This document shows positions 21,238-35,341 of a DNA stretch of 62,314 nucleotides, in pieces; position 1 is the first letter of the stretch, and every line of letters begins with the position of its first letter. This DNA is from Pseudomonadota bacterium (GTDB lineage: Bacteria > Pseudomonadota > Gammaproteobacteria > JAADHS01), in contig JAKACW010000025.1 of NCBI GenBank assembly GCA_021821045.1, positions 1-62,314 of the forward strand, read 5' to 3'. A program made the position numbers and the translations under genes. Below the pieces are notes generated by a model. The model did no database searches and was not told where the DNA came from. It saw nothing but the letters and a program-made list of their open reading frames with translations.

Positions 21238-21858
21238 ATGCATCGCCGGAACCTCATCCATCTGCTCGACCGTTACGCCACGCCGTTCATCGAGGAGGCG
21301 GCCATGGTCGATAAAACACGCCGATTCGTTTTGGGGAACGAGCGTTGTTTCGACCGTGGACTGGCGCACGGCCACGTGTCGGGCTCCGCCTGGGTGCTCA
21401 ACCCGCGCCGAACGCACGTCTTCATGCTCCACCACCGAAAACTGAATTGGTGGCTTCAGCCGGGCGGGCACGCCGACGGCAATCACGACATCGCCGCAGT
21501 CGCGCTGAGCGAAACGATCGAGGAAGCGGGTGCGACGCCGCGCCAGGTGCGCCTGTTGAGCGATGAGATATTCGACGTCGACGTGCACACGGTTCACGCT
21601 ACCGCCACCGAGCCCCGCCACACCCACTTCGACATTCGCTTTCTGATTGAGCTGGACGATCGCGAGCCCCTCGACGGCAACGACGAATCCCACGCCGTGG
21701 CCTGGGTGCCGCTGCATCAGGTCATGCGTTTGAACAACTTTCGCTCCACCTATCGAATGGTGCGAAAAACCCGCTCGCTCACAAACGAAGGTCTTCGTCC
21801 ATCGGCCGCTCGTAGGATTGCGGCATCAGCACCGCCACGTCCGACACGAATACTTTGA
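21238..21858 (+). CDS. Nudix hydrolase with degenerate box
   Basis: The 206-residue protein has HVSGSAWVLNPRRTHVFMLHHRKLNWWLQPGGHADG, then a Nudix-like helix VALSETIEEAGA. The canonical G-x5-E-x7-REUxEExGU is altered: the first Glu is absent and R of REU is S, but SETIEEAG keeps the Glu residues that bind metal. It is one of the Nudix families annotated as phosphohydrolases acting on nucleotide-linked substrates; the real substrate is unknown. Its last 80 nt overlap the convergent end of the PII-like gene on the other strand, and its tail (RIAASAPPRPTRIL) is probably not conserved. Confidence 0.75.
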   Translation: MHRRNLIHLLDRYATPFIEEAAMVDKTRRFVLGNERCFDRGLAHGHVSGSAWVLNPRRTHVFMLHHRKLNWWLQPGGHADGNHDIAAVALSETIEEAGATPRQVRLLSDEIFDVDVHTVHATATEPRHTHFDIRFLIELDDREPLDGNDESHAVAWVPLHQVMRLNNFRSTYRMVRKTRSLTNEGLRPSAARRIAASAPPRPTRIL

Positions 21859-22114
21859 ACTTGTAACTCTTCTTCAGCAGCCGCTCCAACTCATCGAGCA
21901 AGCCGGCGACGCGGCTCTCCGGCAGAATGATTTTGATCAGAATATTGGTATCGATGTCCAAATTGCCGCTTTGCACGCCGGTGGAGCCGGCGCCGCGAGC
22001 TTCCGTCACGGTATAGCCGCTCACGCCGCTTTTCGCCGCAAGCTTGGTCAGCTTGGCTTCCAGCGCCCCGTCCGCGATGATCGTCAGCAGCTTTTCAGGT
22101 ACAAGTCGTTTCAT
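21779..22114 (-). CDS. sbtB: PII-like regulator of SbtA (SbtB-like)
   Basis: The 111-residue protein has KLLTIIADGALEAKLTKLAAKSGVSGYTVTEARG followed by GAGSTGVQSG in the place of the T-loop and a final FVSDVAVLMP strand, the ferredoxin-like fold of PII-like proteins. It lies 22 nt downstream of sbtA, the arrangement found for SbtB, a nucleotide-sensing subunit that binds the bicarbonate transporter. It lacks the full uridylylation loop of GlnB. The DabA tail (37740-41009) has the same fold, so both carbon-uptake systems carry a PII-like module. Confidence 0.85.
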   Translation of the reverse strand: MKRLVPEKLLTIIADGALEAKLTKLAAKSGVSGYTVTEARGAGSTGVQSGNLDIDTNILIKIILPESRVAGLLDELERLLKKSYKFKVFVSDVAVLMPQSYERPMDEDLRL

Positions 22115-22136: not shown

Positions 22137-23138
22137 TTAAGCGCTCATCAGTCGCTCGGCCATCCACTGATACAGCGGAATGCCGACTATCACATTAAAG
22201 GGAAAGGTAACGCCCAGGGCAAGGGTCAGATAATACGAGGGATTGGCTTCCGGCACCGCTAGGCGCATGGCCGGAGGAACGGCGATGTACGATGCGCTCG
22301 CGCCCAGCACGGCCACCAGCACTGTGCCGCCCACGCTAAAATCCAGCAGCATGGCGCCGGCGATCACGCCCACCGCGCCGCCGAGCAGCGGCATGCCGAT
22401 GCCGAAACCCACCAAAAATCCGCCGACGCGTTTGAACTCGTTGGCGCGCCGCCCCGCCTCCAGCCCCATCTCCAGCAGGAACAAGCACAGCACGCCCATG
22501 AATATCTCGTCGATGAACGGGATCACTTTATCGAACGCGCTCGGCTTGGCCACTGCGCCGATCACCATGGCGCCGATCAGCAGCACCACGCTGCCGTTGG
22601 TGAAGGCATCACGCAGAATTTCCGACAGATGGCCGTTGCCGTTTTGCCCGTTACTCTCGCGCTGCGCCTGATCGCCCTCCTGCTTGCGCGCCCAAGCCGC
22701 CAACAGCAATCCGACGATGATCGCCGGCGACTCCATCACCGCCAGCATGATCACCGGGTAGCTCTCGTAGCTAATTTGCGCGCTGTCGAGAAACGCCACG
22801 GCGGTAAGGAACGTGCCCGCGCTCACGGAGCCATAGTGGGCGGAAATGGCGGCGGCATTGAGCCGGTCCATCTTGGCCGACATCATGAGAATTCGATAGG
22901 CCGCCAGCGGTAGAAAAAAGCCCATGCCGAGCGCCACCAGAATGGACTTCATAGCGATGACCAAATCCGCCTTGGCTAATTCGTGGCCGCCGTGCAGACC
23001 AATGGCCACCAGCAGGTAAATTGACAAGGCCTTGGCCATATCGGGCGGAAACTTCAGATCCGAGCGGACGAGTTTCGCAATGTAGCCCAGGGCGAAGAAC
23101 AGTACGGCGGGAATGAGAAGATTTTGCAGACCTGCCAT
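22137..23138 (-). CDS. sbtA: Sodium-dependent bicarbonate transporter SbtA
   Basis: The 333-residue membrane protein has about ten hydrophobic segments and SbtA-specific stretches: FFALGYIAKLVRSDLKFP, YLLVAIGLHGG, AHYGSVSAGTF, VMESPAIIVGLLLA and GASASYIAVPPAMR. The polar loop in the middle (ARKQEGDQAQRESNGQNGNG) is the cytosolic linker between the two inverted halves. It would import bicarbonate with Na+ for the carboxysome. It is followed by sbtB and preceded by a LysR-type gene with an AT-rich palindromic region between. Confidence 0.93.
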   Translation of the reverse strand: MAGLQNLLIPAVLFFALGYIAKLVRSDLKFPPDMAKALSIYLLVAIGLHGGHELAKADLVIAMKSILVALGMGFFLPLAAYRILMMSAKMDRLNAAAISAHYGSVSAGTFLTAVAFLDSAQISYESYPVIMLAVMESPAIIVGLLLAAWARKQEGDQAQRESNGQNGNGHLSEILRDAFTNGSVVLLIGAMVIGAVAKPSAFDKVIPFIDEIFMGVLCLFLLEMGLEAGRRANEFKRVGGFLVGFGIGMPLLGGAVGVIAGAMLLDFSVGGTVLVAVLGASASYIAVPPAMRLAVPEANPSYYLTLALGVTFPFNVIVGIPLYQWMAERLMSA

Positions 23139-23253: not shown

Positions 23254-24318
23254 CTATGCTTTTGAAACGCTCGCGGGGGGCAGCTTGAGGCCCGCCTCAT
23301 CAAGCAGGCGATTCATGAAATCCCGCACGGAGGGCTCGTTACTCAGCGCGAATTCCAGAAAGGCCTTGGCGACCAGCGAAAGATCCTTGTTCCGCGGATG
23401 AACGATGTACCATTGGCGCGGAATCGGAAATCCCACCACGTCGAGCAGCGCCACAGGGCCATTCACGCCTTCGAGGGTGAGCGTGTGCAGGGATTGAATG
23501 GCCAGACCGAGGCCGCCGACAACGGCGTGTTTGATCGCCTCGTTGCTGCCCAGTTCCAGCCGCACTTTCGGTTGAAACCCGTGCTGTTCGAACAGTTTCA
23601 CAACCGTATCGCGCGTTCCCGAGCCCGGTTCGCGCAGAATGAAAGGCTCTCTCGCGATTCGCTCGAATGGAATACGCTTCTGACCCACCAGCGGGTGATC
23701 CCGCGCCGCCATCACCACCAAGGGATTGGGCGCGAACGGGTAAGCTTCCACGTCCAGTTCGTCCGGCGGCGGCGCACCGAGAATGTACAAGTCGTCGTCG
23801 TAAGCCAGAATGCGCTCGATCGCGCGATCGCGATTGGAAACTTTGAGACTGACTTCGACGCCGGGATACAGTTTGCAGAAACCGCCGAGAATCTCGGGGG
23901 CAAAGTATTTCGCCGTCGTGATAACTCCCAGTTTGAGCTTGCCCGCCCGCAAGCCTTTTAGATCCGCGAACTTCGACTCGAGATTGCCGAGGGCGCGAAA
24001 AATGGTTCGACAGGCCTGGTACAGTGCGTCGCCGGCTTCCGTTGGCCGGGTTTGGCGCCCCACCTGTTCGAGCAGCGTCAAACCGACCGAGTCCGCCAAC
24101 TTCTTCATCTGCAGGCTGACGGTGGGCTGCGTAAGAAAGAGTTCTTCCGCCGCTTTGGTGTAACTTCCCAAACGCACGATGGCTTCGAACAATTGGAGCT
24201 GCCGTAGCGTGGCGTGGCGAATAAGGAATTCCGAGCTGCCTTGCGGAAGCGGCGCGCCCTCGGCGTCCGAATCCGTGCTGATCATCTTGTCGTCACCTGA
24301 ATCGCCCCGCTTCGTCAT
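23254..24318 (-). CDS. cbbR: LysR-type regulator, CbbR paralog 2
   Basis: The 354-residue protein has an N-terminal winged helix-turn-helix (LRQLQLFEAIVRLGSYTKAAEELFLTQPTVSLQMKKL) and a periplasmic-binding-fold effector domain with ILREPGSGTRDTV, GSNEAIKHAVVGGLGLAIQSLHTL and PRQWYIVHPRNKDLS, all strongly conserved in CbbR. It is close to the second copy at 25720-26802 over the whole length; the N-terminal about 30 residues and C-terminal tail differ most. It precedes sbtA by 115 nt on the same strand, so it may autoregulate and control bicarbonate uptake. Confidence 0.9.
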   Translation of the reverse strand: MTKRGDSGDDKMISTDSDAEGAPLPQGSSEFLIRHATLRQLQLFEAIVRLGSYTKAAEELFLTQPTVSLQMKKLADSVGLTLLEQVGRQTRPTEAGDALYQACRTIFRALGNLESKFADLKGLRAGKLKLGVITTAKYFAPEILGGFCKLYPGVEVSLKVSNRDRAIERILAYDDDLYILGAPPPDELDVEAYPFAPNPLVVMAARDHPLVGQKRIPFERIAREPFILREPGSGTRDTVVKLFEQHGFQPKVRLELGSNEAIKHAVVGGLGLAIQSLHTLTLEGVNGPVALLDVVGFPIPRQWYIVHPRNKDLSLVAKAFLEFALSNEPSVRDFMNRLLDEAGLKLPPASVSKA

Positions 24319-24432: not shown

Positions 24433-24894
24433 TTAGGTAACTGCGAGTTCCTCGAACAAAACGAGGGCCGCAGCCAACCCACCGACCACCGCGGCAGCGC
24501 GCCATACTCCGCTGCGGTTTCTGTATTTGTTCCGCTGCGCCGCCGGCTCACGTTTAACGAGGCGCAGTCGCGGTTCGAGTTTTGCGGGAATATCAAGATT
24601 GTCGAGATAAAAAACGAAGCGGCTTTGCGGGCGCAGTTTTTCGGCGTTGAGGCGAATCTGCCGATTGGGATGGGCCTTGCGGCACCCCACGATGGCATCA
24701 AGGATTTGGGACGGATCGCACACGGCGAAAAAGGCGTTACCCCACCGAGCCCAGGAATCAGAGTGCGACATTGTCTGGTCGCAGTATTCGATTTGGATTA
24801 CCCAGTCTCCGAACAGAGTATCAGCGACCAAGCGCTCCACCTCCGCCAAAGTCACCGTTGGGGTGCTTGGTTCATATCGCGGCGCAAGTTGCAT
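24433..24894 (-). CDS. RbcS-like (Rubisco small-subunit-like) protein with C-terminal membrane anchor
   Basis: ATG 24894 is preceded by AGAGGA at good distance and gives 153 residues; an in-frame GTG at 24951 would add 19. Residues 19-97 align without gaps to the window's own CbbS: W31, W48 and W51, FF55-56, C71, P76 and RL81-82 fall at exactly the spacing of W43, W60 and W63, FF67-68, C83, P88 and RL93-94. I count 16 identities in about 67 columns plus many conservative changes. After a basic linker (98-129), residues 130-150 are a single hydrophobic helix, so the protein looks tail-anchored with the RbcS-like domain cytosolic. The start region of CbbS (residues 1-28) is absent. It lies between csoS1D and cbbR2. 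A Rubisco-binding membrane tether or assembly factor is inferred; I know of no described family with this layout. Confidence 0.75.
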   Translation of the reverse strand: MQLAPRYEPSTPTVTLAEVERLVADTLFGDWVIQIEYCDQTMSHSDSWARWGNAFFAVCDPSQILDAIVGCRKAHPNRQIRLNAEKLRPQSRFVFYLDNLDIPAKLEPRLRLVKREPAAQRNKYRNRSGVWRAAAVVGGLAAALVLFEELAVT

Positions 24895-25022
24895 GGCTAT
24901 GTCCTCTGCGTTGAAAGCCGGTTCGGCGTTCGAGTGAGCATAGCCGGGCACCCATGCCCTGGGAAGCCGCTAAGGCATTGGGAATTTCAATGCCACCTCG
25001 GCATTCGATCACCCGGTGTCAA

Positions 25023-25673
25023 TCAACCAGTGTGGGCTTGCAGCACGCGAGACTCGTGATCCACACCCGTCAGTGCATTCAACGCGTTGATCGCGGCGCG
25101 GGCGGCTTCGTCGATGTCCGCTTCTTTGCCGGCTAGGGTCAATCGGCCGAAGGCGCCGACGGCTTTGACGTCCACGAGGGTGATGCGGGCCGCTTTTTCG
25201 GCTTCGTTGGCGGCGTAGACGACGTAGCCGGCGGGTTCGGTTTCGAGGATGAACATGCTTTGGCCGGGGAGGATCATGGAGCCGCGGCGGTCTTGGCGGT
25301 TGATGACCACGGCGTGGTCCGGCGTGATGGCACGGATCACTTCCGCCCAAGCGATGCGGCATTTCAGTCGAGCATCCTCGGATGTTTTCAGACGGTTCAA
25401 CACGCTGTGGCCCGCCTCCAGAACATCGCTCTGGTCGCGATGATGGACGAGCATGGAGCCGAAGGCGCGTTCGACGACCTGCTGCACCAGTCGCACCCGC
25501 GCCGCTTTCAGTGCGATGTCCGTCAAGCGATGCACGGCCATGCCGGGCGACACTTCCAGCCACAAGCAGGCGTCGCCGGGCACCGGCAGAAAGCCTTGCG
25601 ACACCGTTCCCAAGTATTCCGCGAGCTGGGGTTGCAACGAATCGATGAAGATGTAGGTGCGCAGTTTGATCAT
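25023..25673 (-). CDS. csoS1D: Tandem-BMC carboxysome shell protein CsoS1D (BMC-T)
   Basis: The 216-residue protein contains two BMC domains. [35 protein letters not shown] and the second half [45 protein letters not shown] are diagnostic for CsoS1D, which forms pseudohexameric trimers that can stack and open a large gated central pore. It sits downstream of cbbR1, separated from the main shell genes, as in several alpha-carboxysome loci. The conserved Glu and Arg around the pore (in LEVSPGMA and [10 protein letters not shown]) appear intact. Confidence 0.93.
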
Positions 25674-25719: not shown

Positions 25720-26802
25720 TCACGCCTTTGCGGAAACGCTTTTCTTCGCCGCTGACACCTCGGCCGGTGTGAAGCCGGCCTGACGCAAGAGATCGTTCAT
25801 GAAGTTTCTGACGTTGGGCTCGTTGCTCAGCGCGAACTCGAGAAACGCCTTGGCCACCAGCGAGAGTTCCTTGCTGCGCGGATGGACGATGTACCACTGG
25901 CGCGGAATCGGGAAGTCCTGAACATCGAGCAGCGCCACCGGCCCCGTCACGCCTTCGAGCGTCAACACGTGGAGCGATTGAATCGCCAAGCCGAGACCGC
26001 CCACGACCGCATGCTTGATGGCTTCGTTGCTGCCCAACTCGAGGCGCACGCGCGGCTTGAAGCCGCGATCCTCGAAATACCGCACGATGGTCTCGCGGGT
26101 TCCCGAACCCGGTTCGCGCAGAATAAACGGTTCTTCGGCGATGCGCTCGAACGGGATGGATTTTTGTCCCACCAGGGGATGATTGCGCGGCGCCATGACC
26201 ACCAGCGGGTTGGGCGCGAAAGGATAGCTCACCAGATCCAGATCGCCGGGCGGCGGCGTGCCGAGAATATACAGGTCGTCTTCGCAGGCGAGAATGCGTT
26301 CGATGATGCGCTCGCGGTTCGACACTTTGAGGCTGACATCCACACCTTGGTACTGCTTGCAGAACGCGCCTAGCATCTCCGGCGCGAAGTACTTGGCGGT
26401 GGTGATGACACCCAAGCGCACTTTGCCGGCGCGCAATCCCTTGAGATCGGCAATCTTCGATTCCAGATTGCCCAGGGCGCGAAAGATGGAGCGGCAGGCT
26501 TGATACAGCTCCTGCCCGGCTTCCGTCGCCCGCGTGTGGCGACCGACGGGTTCCAGCAGCGTCAGGCCCACCGAGTCGGTCAGCTTCTTCATCTGCAAAC
26601 TCACGGTGGGCTGGGTCAGGAACAGCTCTTCCGCCGCCCGCGTGAAACTTCCCAGGCGCACGATGGCTTCGAACACCTGCAACTGGCGCAATGTGGCGTG
26701 GCGGATCAGAAACTCCGAGTTGTCGCGCGCGGCGCTCGCCTCCTCGCGTTCGGACGGCTCGCTTGTCGCTATGCCTTGATTCCGATCTTTCGCCTTTTTC
26801 AT
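25720..26802 (-). CDS. cbbR: LysR-type regulator of the CO2-fixation genes, CbbR paralog 1
   Basis: The 360-residue protein has the same CbbR architecture as 23254-24318: helix-turn-helix LRQLQVFEAIVRLGSFTRAAEELFLTQPTVSLQ and effector domain with FILREPGSGTRETIV and PRQWYIVHPRSKELS. The start is 2 nt after the mcdB stop, so it appears cotranscribed as part of the cso operon rather than divergent from cbbL, the usual place for cbbR. It would sense metabolites such as RuBP or NADPH and activate cbb genes. The presence of a near-identical paralog raises the possibility of mixed dimers. Confidence 0.9.
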   Translation of the reverse strand: MKKAKDRNQGIATSEPSEREEASAARDNSEFLIRHATLRQLQVFEAIVRLGSFTRAAEELFLTQPTVSLQMKKLTDSVGLTLLEPVGRHTRATEAGQELYQACRSIFRALGNLESKIADLKGLRAGKVRLGVITTAKYFAPEMLGAFCKQYQGVDVSLKVSNRERIIERILACEDDLYILGTPPPGDLDLVSYPFAPNPLVVMAPRNHPLVGQKSIPFERIAEEPFILREPGSGTRETIVRYFEDRGFKPRVRLELGSNEAIKHAVVGGLGLAIQSLHVLTLEGVTGPVALLDVQDFPIPRQWYIVHPRSKELSLVAKAFLEFALSNEPNVRNFMNDLLRQAGFTPAEVSAAKKSVSAKA

Positions 26803-26804
26803 AG

Positions 26805-26996
26805 TTAGTCCGGCCAGCGCAAGCCGCCCAATGCGTAGCGATTGTCGGCGCCGCCTTGCTGTGGGCGCGTCGCGCGTTCGGCGGCGCGACCGGGAGTCGC
26901 ACCCGCGGCTTTGCTCTTGCGCATGCCTTCCACCAATTGGTTCTTTGTTCTATCCGTTTGGGTCTTATCCGTTTGACTCTTGTCGCTCTGCGTCAT
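26805..26996 (-). CDS. mcdB: Carboxysome positioning adaptor McdB (alpha type)
   Basis: This 63-residue, very polar protein begins with TQSDKSQTDKTQTDRTKNQ, a low-complexity repeat, and ends with GGLRWPD. It overlaps the 3' end of mcdA by 32 nt. Alpha-McdB proteins are small, disordered, encoded immediately after the ParA-type McdA, and carry a conserved Trp near the C-terminus, all seen here. It would link carboxysomes to the nucleoid-bound McdA gradient. It is shorter than most alpha-McdBs. The assignment relies on position, composition and the C-terminal Trp. Confidence 0.75.
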   Translation of the reverse strand: MTQSDKSQTDKTQTDRTKNQLVEGMRKSKAAGATPGRAAERATRPQQGGADNRYALGGLRWPD

Positions 26997-27624
26997 ACCG
27001 CAATACCTCCGTTATCACATTCTCGATTTCTTTTACCGCATCCTCGCCCCGCCGGCCCATCGCATACACCGTGGACCCGATCAGCGCCGCGGTTCGAAAG
27101 GCCGCCCGGCGACGTATCACTGCTGCCAGGGCCGGTACGCCGAGTTCGCCCATGACATCTTTCACACCCTGGCCAAGCCGGGTTTTCGGCTCGACCTGGT
27201 TCAACACAATGCAGGCCCGCAGCGCCGGATTAACCGCCTTCGCCTCACTCACCCACTCGGCTACATGAGTTCCCGCCCACAAGTCGACGGGGGAAGGCTG
27301 CATGGGCACCAGCAGAACATCCGCCTTGACCAGGGCCTCGCGCGTCTGCTCGGCGGCGAACGACGGCGGACAATCGATGACCACGTAGCGATGGCTCGCT
27401 CGCCAGTCGTGGATTCTGCCCACCGCCTCGGCATCGCCGGCAGTCACATCGAACCGCAGGCGACTGCCTTCATCCGACACCCGCCACCACTGCAACGCCG
27501 ATTGCTGCGGGTCGGTATCCACCACGAGCGTGTTACCGCGTCGCGCCAGCCCTTCGGCCAAGTTCATGGCCAAAGTCGTCTTCCCGACTCCGCCTTTTCC
27601 GCTCGCCACTACGATGATGGTCAT
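26965..27624 (-). CDS. mcdA: ParA-family ATPase McdA, carboxysome positioning
   Basis: The 219-residue protein begins MTIIVVASGKGGVGKTT, a deviant Walker A motif with the signature Lys (K10) and K15. VVIDCPPSFA is the Walker B/switch II region and VLNQVEPKTRLG follows. Length and lack of an N-terminal DNA-binding domain are typical of type Ib ParA/McdA. In alpha-carboxysome operons this gene follows acRAF, as here. It distributes carboxysomes over the nucleoid with McdB, using ATP-driven DNA binding. Confidence 0.9.
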   Translation of the reverse strand: MTIIVVASGKGGVGKTTLAMNLAEGLARRGNTLVVDTDPQQSALQWWRVSDEGSRLRFDVTAGDAEAVGRIHDWRASHRYVVIDCPPSFAAEQTREALVKADVLLVPMQPSPVDLWAGTHVAEWVSEAKAVNPALRACIVLNQVEPKTRLGQGVKDVMGELGVPALAAVIRRRAAFRTAALIGSTVYAMGRRGEDAVKEIENVITEVLRYDAERQESNG

Positions 27625-33530: not shown

Positions 33531-33878
33531 TTAACCACGCGCCCGGTATACGACGAACGCGGCGCCCTGAGACTGGGTGTAGTTGTCGTAGCCGACCAGG
33601 CGCACGTGGTGATCCGGATACGCCCGGTGACAGGCTTCCAGTTCCGCCACCACCGCGCCCAAGTCGGTTTCGCCGAAGAACGGCAGCTTCCACATGGCCC
33701 AGTAGTGATTGCCGGCCTTGGACGGATGCTCATGCTCCACCGACGGCGACCAGCGGTTGGCCAGGAGGTAGGCGATCTGCTCGTAGATTTCGTCCTGCGA
33801 CATGGACGGGAGAAACGAGAACGTCTCCATCGTCTGCTTGGTGCGGTAGTCCTGCATTGTCTCGTTCTTGAGTGCCAT
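33531..33878 (-). CDS. cbbS: Rubisco form IA small subunit
   Basis: The 115-residue protein MALKNETMQDYRTKQTMETFSFLP...PSMSQDEIYEQIAYLLANRW...YWAMWKLPFFGETD...HVRLVGYDNYTQSQG is a standard carboxysomal form IA small subunit. It lies 47 nt downstream of cbbL and 45 nt upstream of csoS2. It is the reference for the RbcS-like protein at 24433-24894. Confidence 0.97.
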   Translation of the reverse strand: MALKNETMQDYRTKQTMETFSFLPSMSQDEIYEQIAYLLANRWSPSVEHEHPSKAGNHYWAMWKLPFFGETDLGAVVAELEACHRAYPDHHVRLVGYDNYTQSQGAAFVVYRARG

Positions 33879-33925: not shown

Positions 33926-35341
33926 TTACGCAGCGTCCAGCTTGTCCACGGTCTCGAATTCGAACTTGATCTCTTTCCACGTTTCCAGAGCGATGGCGAG
34001 TTCCGGACTGCTCTTGGCCGCATCCATCAACACGTCGCGACCTTCTTTCTCGATCTCGCGGCCTTGGTTACGCGCCTTGACGCACGCTTCCAACGCGACG
34101 CGGTTCGCCGCGGCGCCGGCTGCGTTGCCCCACGGGTGCCCCAAGGTGCCGCCGCCGAACTGCAGTACGGAGTCGTCGCCGAAGATGGTGACCAGCGCCG
34201 GCATGTGCCACACGTGGATACCGCCGGAAGCGACCGCGAACACACCGGGCATGGAACCCCAGTCCTGGTCGAAGAAGATCCCGCGGGCGCGGTCTTCCGG
34301 AATGAACGATTCGCGCAGCAGATCGACGAAGCCCATGGTGGCGCCGCGATCGCCTTCGAGTTTGCCCACGACCGTACCGGTGTGGATGTGGTCGCCGCCG
34401 GACAGGCGCAGGCACTTGGCCAGCACGCGGAAGTGAATGCCGTGCTTTGGATGGCGGTCGATTACGGCGTGCATGGCGCGGTGGATGTGCAGCAACATGC
34501 CGTTCTTGCGGCACCACTTGGCCAGACCCGTGTTGGCAGTGAAGCCGGCGGTCAAGAAGTCGTGCATGATGATCGGCATGCCCAGTTCCTTGGCGAATTG
34601 CGCGCGTTCGTACATGGCTTCCGGATCCGGCGCCGTGACGTTCAGATAGTGACCCTTCTTCTCGCCGGTTTCCTGCTGCGCTTTGTAGATCGCTTCAGCA
34701 ACGAATTCGAAGCGGTTCTGCCAGCGCATGAACGGCTGCGAGTTGATGTTCTCGTCGTCCTTGGTGAAATCCAGACCGCCGCGCAAACATTCGTAAACGG
34801 CGCGGCCGTAGTTCTTGGCCGACAAGCCGAGCTTGGGCTTGATGGTGCAACCCAGCATGGGACGACCGTATTTGTTGAGCTTGTCGCGCTCGACTTGGAT
34901 GCCGTTCGGTGGCCCCAAGCAGGTCTTGACGTAGGCGATCGGGAACCGGATGTCTTCCAGGCGCAGGTGCTTGACCGCTTTGAATCCGAAAACGTTGCCG
35001 ACCAGAGACGTCAGCACGTTGACGATCGAACCTTCTTCGAACAGATCGATCGGGTAGGCAATGAAAGCGTAGAACGCTTCGGGATCGCCGGGAACCGGTT
35101 CGATGCGATAGGCACGGCCTTTGTAGAAGTCCAGATCGGTCAGCAAATCGGTCCATACCGTCGTCCAGGTACCGGTGGACGATTCTGCGGCAACCGCAGC
35201 AGCGGCTTCTTCATTCGGCACGCCCGGCTGAGGCGTGACTTTGAAACACGCCAACAGGTCCGTGTCCAACGGAATGTAATCTGGAGTCCAATATGTCTCC
35301 CGATACTCTTTTACCCCGGCTGCGTATTTGTTTTGACTCAT
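33926..35341 (-). CDS. cbbL: Rubisco form IA large subunit
   Basis: The 471-residue protein has all Rubisco signatures: [18 protein letters not shown] (catalytic Lys), [20 protein letters not shown] (carbamylated Lys and metal ligands D and E), [31 protein letters not shown] (catalytic His and loop 6) and [24 protein letters not shown]. The N-terminal [21 protein letters not shown] is typical of carboxysomal form IA. GAGGAG before ATG 35341 is the ribosome-binding site. It leads the cso operon. No cbbX or cbbQO activase gene is seen in the window. Confidence 0.98.

Follow-up and report, generated by a model that had tools for sequence, protein, structure and literature searches.

A Rubisco small-subunit-like protein family of alpha-carboxysome gammaproteobacteria with a predicted membrane anchor in some members

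Introduction

Small-subunit-like (SSUL) Rubisco-binding modules are central to the assembly of beta-carboxysomes; alpha-carboxysomes are understood to rely on the disordered protein CsoS2. We know of SSUL domains only from beta-cyanobacteria, where they are part of CcmM and Rubisco activase (Rca). CcmM35 lacks the key RbcL-binding motifs and sits in a groove without displacing RbcS (PMC9833052; PMC8580825), and in alpha-carboxysomes one Rubisco site is common to CsoS2 and CsoSCA (PMC10614612).

Here we describe RbcSL, an RbcS-like protein encoded in a 62,314-nucleotide stretch of a gammaproteobacterial genome (contig JAKACW010000025.1 of assembly GCA_021821045.1; hereafter the window), together with its relatives. 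RbcSL resembles the SSUL domains of CcmM and Rca in combining a predicted RbcS fold with a carboxysome context and, taking a list of conserved residues as proxy, in missing the RbcL-binding motifs. In contrast to them, it is a single-domain protein in all eight members, with neither a gamma-CA nor an AAA+ partner and without tandem repeats, it comes from gammaproteobacteria with alpha-carboxysomes, and some members carry a predicted membrane helix. Its sequence also stands nearer to true CbbS than to the SSUL of cyanobacteria, and the only CcmM SSUL match of the family profile was 6mr1 (E 0.6). With the Rubisco small subunit CbbS/RbcS it shares the fold, the Pfam family PF00101 and the spacing of W, W-x2-W, F-F, C and R-L, but it does not stand in a cbbLS pair, it has an extra C-terminal linker and helix in the window, and its carriers own separate cbbS genes. 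We found no description of an RbcSL-type protein in the open-access literature as far as its text was available, including the accessible portions of PMC12918739, PMC9164163, PMC4207490, PMC4633670 and PMC10880623. Provisionally, we regard RbcSL as a small, apparently undescribed family that occurs only in carboxysome bacteria.

Results

RbcSL lies between a carboxysome shell gene and bicarbonate uptake genes

A sequence-only reading of the window had marked an open reading frame beside csoS1D, cbbR and sbtA as a membrane-anchored relative of the Rubisco small subunit. Both ends of that frame proved correct, with a putative ribosome-binding site ahead of the ATG (Table 1) and a start of MQ or MK that also opens most relatives in the family alignment, and Pfam and NCBIfam matches confirmed the neighbours. 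The gene order is csoS1D, RbcSL, cbbR, sbtA, sbtB, with no cbbL adjacent to RbcSL. The protein belongs to Pfam RuBisCO_small (E 1.6e-12, 47.7 bits against a gathering cut-off of 27). A scan for promoters and terminators scored no better than shuffles.

Two CbbR-type regulators (23254-24318 and 25720-26802) flank csoS1D and RbcSL, and a NUDIX hydrolase gene lies at 21238-21858. After the ParA-type gene comes a 63-aa open reading frame (26805-26996) that has no Pfam match and ends in WPD, as in locus L027; we take it to be probably McdB, the carboxysome-positioning protein. The window genome (G000) encodes three form I Rubiscos, namely the carboxysomal form IA, a form IA with cbbQ and a form IC whose operon has cbbX (loci L002 and L001 on contigs C131 and C76).

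Table 1. Coordinates of the features discussed, in the window unless a locus is named
Feature	Position	Strand	Remarks
RbcSL, RbcS-like with C-terminal hydrophobic anchor (predicted)	24433..24894	(-)	153 aa, ATG at 24894; Pfam PF00101
RbcS-fold domain, residues 12-98 (helix, two strands, helix, two strands)	24601..24861	(-)	AlphaFold2; VIA-align
Basic linker, residues 105-130	24505..24582	(-)	Arg/Lys-rich by sequence; pLDDT under 60
Predicted transmembrane helix, residues 131-147 (WRAAAVVGGLAAALVLF), then six-residue tail EELAVT	24454..24504	(-)	
Putative ribosome-binding site of RbcSL, AGAGGA	24902..24907	(-)	from sequence; ~8 bases 5' of ATG
csoS1D, BMC-T shell protein	25023..25673	(-)	Pfam BMC; NCBIfam CcmP-type 246 bits; 128 bp upstream of RbcSL
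Second CbbR-type LysR regulator	23254..24318	(-)	114 bp downstream of RbcSL
sbtA, Na+-dependent bicarbonate transporter	22137..23138	(-)	PF05982 (Sbt_1) 383.6 bits
P-II/SbtB-like protein	21779..22114	(-)	PF00543 58.9 bits
ParA-type carboxysome-positioning gene	26965-27624		same locus as RbcSL
Carboxysomal form IA CbbS, genuine (comparison)	33531..33878	(-)	PF00101 131.9 bits; 10/10 conserved residues
CbbL of carboxysomal Rubisco, proposed RbcSL partner	33926..35341	(-)	served as cbbL reference in searches
CSL copies, part 1	L086:9529-9840; L099:9544-9846; L072:9589-9900		
CSL copies, part 2	L079:9545-9865; L095:9575-9874; L076:1835-2149		
CSL copies, part 3	L085:9196-9510; L077:2434-2739; L027:9551-9859		

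RbcSL has a predicted RbcS fold and has lost residues that CbbS keeps

To the CbbS of the window, RbcSL aligns over 88 aa at 25% identity (BLASTP, E 5e-10) with a gapless core, in which W31, W48-x2-W51, F55-F56, C71, P76 and R81-L82 fall at identical spacing, just as the sequence-only reading had described. In the AlphaFold2 model, computed from an alignment (A5) of the window RbcSL with csoS1D-locus proteins, helix 16-27, strands 31-39 and 49-56, helix 61-74 and strands 78-86 and 91-97 follow one another in the order of RbcS, and pLDDT is about 79-92 for residues 31 to 100. All Foldseek matches of the model at E up to 0.001 are Rubisco small subunits. The top structural match in VIA-align is the carboxysomal CbbS of H. 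neapolitanus (7snv; Z 10.8, 3.6 A over 99 residues); the SSUL domain of Nostoc Rubisco activase (6has) gives Z 8.8 and 6z1g gives Z 8.5. On these models RbcSL is a real RbcS-fold protein.

Ten residues are nearly universal in CbbS according to Table 2 of PMC9164163 (S9, L11, P12, Y25, E36, W48, L53, P54, F56 and E67), and our argument for a lost interface rests on this list. The window RbcSL keeps 4 of the ten and the eight family members keep 2-4, against 8-10 in real CbbS (n=14); the equivalents of S9, L11, Y25, P54 and E67 are gone in most members. Because each of the seven relatives' genomes also holds two genuine cbbS genes (three in the window genome), RbcSL is never the sole candidate small subunit. 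In G405, where a cbbL lies behind RbcSL, that cbbL is followed by a cbbS of its own. RbcSL is not a stray or ordinary cbbS.

By sequence, the nearest solved structures to RbcSL are red-type (form IC/ID) rather than form IA small subunits. A red-type Rubisco was considered as partner on this ground and dropped as unproven, since the other cbbS genes of most relatives have form IA-like lengths.

RbcSL forms a small clade under purifying selection

Other gammaproteobacterial genomes hold seven intact relatives, at 27-35% identity. When 369 genomes were searched across the class, clear relatives turned up in G242, G125 and G133, and order-level searches added those in G373, G413, G404 and G405. 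Relatives came from whole-genome searching alone; a contig search with the peptides of the window RbcSL itself returned none, and an order-level search of the window's own lineage (three genomes) gave no further copy. The eight proteins have in common GDWVIRIEY, W-x2-W, C and RL-x-AEK-x2-P-x-S (alignment A4), of which AEK..P.S is specific to the family. In a maximum-likelihood tree they form one clade (support 99/97) that spans several orders and lies apart from form IA CbbS, red-type CbbS and the CSL family described below, with the warning that this tree joins long branches. The family evolves under purifying selection, with dN/dS of 0.25 for G242/G373 and 0.19 for G125/G413. It is not a binning artefact, since the genomes of three carriers, G133, G242 and G413, reach 100% completeness with one to three contigs each.

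Several further matches were rejected as members. Those in long open frames of G259, G354, G310 and G083, considered as RbcSL fusions, are ordinary red-type CbbS, and the G016 match is a normal CbbS. A SulP transporter gene in G298 is immediately followed by an RbcSL copy that has decayed and is interrupted by internal stops (L187:620-883).

A C-terminal helix is predicted in three of the eight members

The single hydrophobic helix that the sequence-only reading had placed at the C-terminus is indeed there. The Kyte-Doolittle maximum over 19 residues is 1.99 (134-152), the hydrophobic moment is 0.12, and the purely apolar core is short, at about 15 residues (133-147). With one hydrophobic helix within the last 30 residues and a hydrophilic N terminus without signal, the protein shows the pattern of a tail anchor. 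Since an Arg/Lys-rich linker precedes the helix, the positive-inside rule predicts that the RbcS domain would be cytoplasmic. Insertion is a prediction only, because the segment is short and the AlphaFold2 model has no confidence there; the Wimley-White value of the helix is -1.1 in the window against -6.6 in G242.

Encapsulation peptides are amphipathic and overall not hydrophobic. The RbcSL tail, uniformly hydrophobic and of low moment, does not resemble the amphipathic C-terminal helix of BMC encapsulation-peptide cargo, and three control peptides reached Kyte-Doolittle values of -1.0 to 0.0.

The helix is present in the window, G242 and G373, the latter two having a matching helix of VGGLxxxALLF type (VGGLLVSALLF versus VGGLAAALVLF), and missing from the other five. 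The small-subunit-like domain is thus the common part and anchoring the variant. A role in membrane tethering, as first proposed for the window protein, stands for these three genomes as a prediction; it cannot be the common function of the family, because five intact relatives have no anchor. What is common is presumably a small-subunit-like module that faces Rubisco. The least likely version of tethering is that of whole carboxysomes, since the locus has a ParA-type positioning gene and the short frame that is probably McdB.

RbcSL is confined to carboxysome genomes and often lies near Ci transporters

The expectation that homologs would turn up in other carboxysome loci was borne out. All eight carriers have carboxysome genes and seven have csoSCA; in G405, a 70% complete genome, the contig of RbcSL itself bears csoS1D, cbbLS and csoS2. 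Within the class sample, csoSCA occurs in 68 of the 369 genomes and all four RbcSL carriers are among those 68, for which our own arithmetic, ignoring relatedness, gives a chance of ~0.001. RbcSL is accessory, as only about 6% of the sampled carboxysome genomes have it.

Carboxysome/Ci-uptake clusters contain five of the eight genes: sbtA is nearby in the window, SulP (assigned by Pfam) is directly upstream in G133 and G405, and in G125 and G413 SulP is no more than a few kb away. The order is parA, cbbR, SulP, RbcSL in G133 (46 bp after SulP), csoS1D, NUDIX, SulP, RbcSL, cbbL in G405 (60 bp after SulP), and parA, SulP, cbbR, then a convergent RbcSL in G125 and G413. RbcSL stands alone in G242, G373 and G404, with no cso or transporter genes near. 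Since cso clusters often include Ci transporters anyway (PMC10880623), proximity to a transporter is by itself weak evidence.

A second, cysteine-rich family occurs at csoS1D

Another small-subunit-like family, CSL, belongs to purple sulfur bacteria (about 104 aa; C26, C31 and C71 invariant in alignment A2). It lies directly upstream of csoS1D in 8 of 80 csoS1D loci and also occurs in G017; carriers include Thiocystis minor and Imhoffiella purpurea. Like RbcSL, it is small, has a predicted RbcS fold, sits in cso clusters and has lost the same holoenzyme residues (3-5 of the 10 CbbS residues kept); unlike RbcSL, it forms a separate clade, has many conserved cysteines, is directly upstream of csoS1D and has no membrane helix. 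We rejected CSL as part of the RbcSL family: it looked like a member only while the window RbcSL sat in the profile, its leave-one-out score of 37 bits is no better than that of real CbbS, and the tree separates the two. Profile-profile comparison gave clear homology (98%), as two branches of the RbcS superfamily should show. CSL could be a redox-sensitive analogue of SSUL. In 40 of the 80 csoS1D loci a NUDIX hydrolase gene lies <=4 kb from csoS1D, often immediately adjacent, a proximity of which we found no mention in the accessible parts of the carboxysome literature searched.

Discussion

A stand-alone RbcS fold, lost holoenzyme residues and confinement to carboxysome genomes are together best explained if RbcSL is another ligand of the Rubisco hub. 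Our leading explanation, to which we give an even chance, is that RbcSL serves alpha-carboxysome bacteria as a non-catalytic, SSUL-type adaptor that binds Rubisco and, in the window organism, has a tail anchor in the inner membrane. It draws on sequence and computation for the fold, the loss of holoenzyme residues, the helix, purifying selection, restriction to carboxysome genomes and clustering with Ci transport; membrane insertion, Rubisco as partner, the binding site and the biological role we infer. RbcSL would descend from a true CbbS, having lost most of the residues that CbbS keeps in the holoenzyme, and would have arisen separately from the SSUL domains in cyanobacterial CcmM and Rubisco activase but work in the same way. 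Its most likely target would be assembled form IA Rubisco, to which it would attach externally, probably in the CbbL-CbbL-CbbS groove used by CcmM-SSUL, CsoS2 and CsoSCA. In the window organism and two others, the helix would anchor the protein in the inner membrane with its small-subunit-like domain in the cytoplasm. There it might retain Rubisco, or an early CsoS2-Rubisco condensate, close to the bicarbonate transporter whose gene is its neighbour in the window, or else keep the Rubisco binding site occupied until encapsulation. That an anchored small-subunit mimic, evolved independently of cyanobacteria, spatially couples uptake and carboxysome assembly in the former manner is a more tentative idea, which we hold with low confidence.

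The neighbourhood invites a different reading, in which RbcSL would act as partner or regulator of SbtA or SulP/STAS instead of binding Rubisco, with an RbcS fold recruited for the sensing or coupling of transport. The genes directly behind SulP in G133 and G405, the decayed copy likewise placed in G298, and cbbR and sbtA in the window all fit; three genomes (G242, G373 and G404), however, have no adjacent transporter, and the transporter type varies by locus whereas the RbcS-like core is constant, so that we think it unlikely. The full RbcS fold, with a sequence nearer real CbbS than cyanobacterial SSUL, would also suit a true small subunit of an alternative kind, which would become part of L8S8 and thereby anchor the whole Rubisco to the membrane. 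The five conserved positions lost in most members, the low count kept and the two ordinary cbbS genes in every relative argue against this, and we consider it improbable.

There is a slightly slimmer chance that RbcSL is a Rubisco assembly factor, transiently filling the CbbS site or the groove of CbbL intermediates while these are held at the membrane. Its mimicry of the small subunit and the assembly factor acRAF encoded in the same cluster would be in keeping with such a task, but acRAF and chaperonins already perform assembly, and RbcSL is missing from most carboxysome genomes. A C-terminal helix behind a flexible linker, with csoS1D alongside, recalls a shell-encapsulation peptide that would bring the protein into the carboxysome; the hydropathy and moment of the tail, set against the control peptides, make this very improbable. 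Least credible of all is a decaying cbbS duplicate: low identity and the internal stops of the G298 copy would agree with decay, but the dN/dS values of two relative pairs, the AEK..P.S motif and a single clade across several orders speak against it.

If the adaptor reading is true, the existence of a stand-alone small-subunit-like family in alpha-carboxysome genomes only would imply repeated evolution of small-subunit mimicry. PF00101 matches in cso loci should also be read with caution, as not all are catalytic small subunits. In its anchored form, RbcSL would be a candidate for connecting Rubisco physically to the inner membrane, the site of bicarbonate entry.
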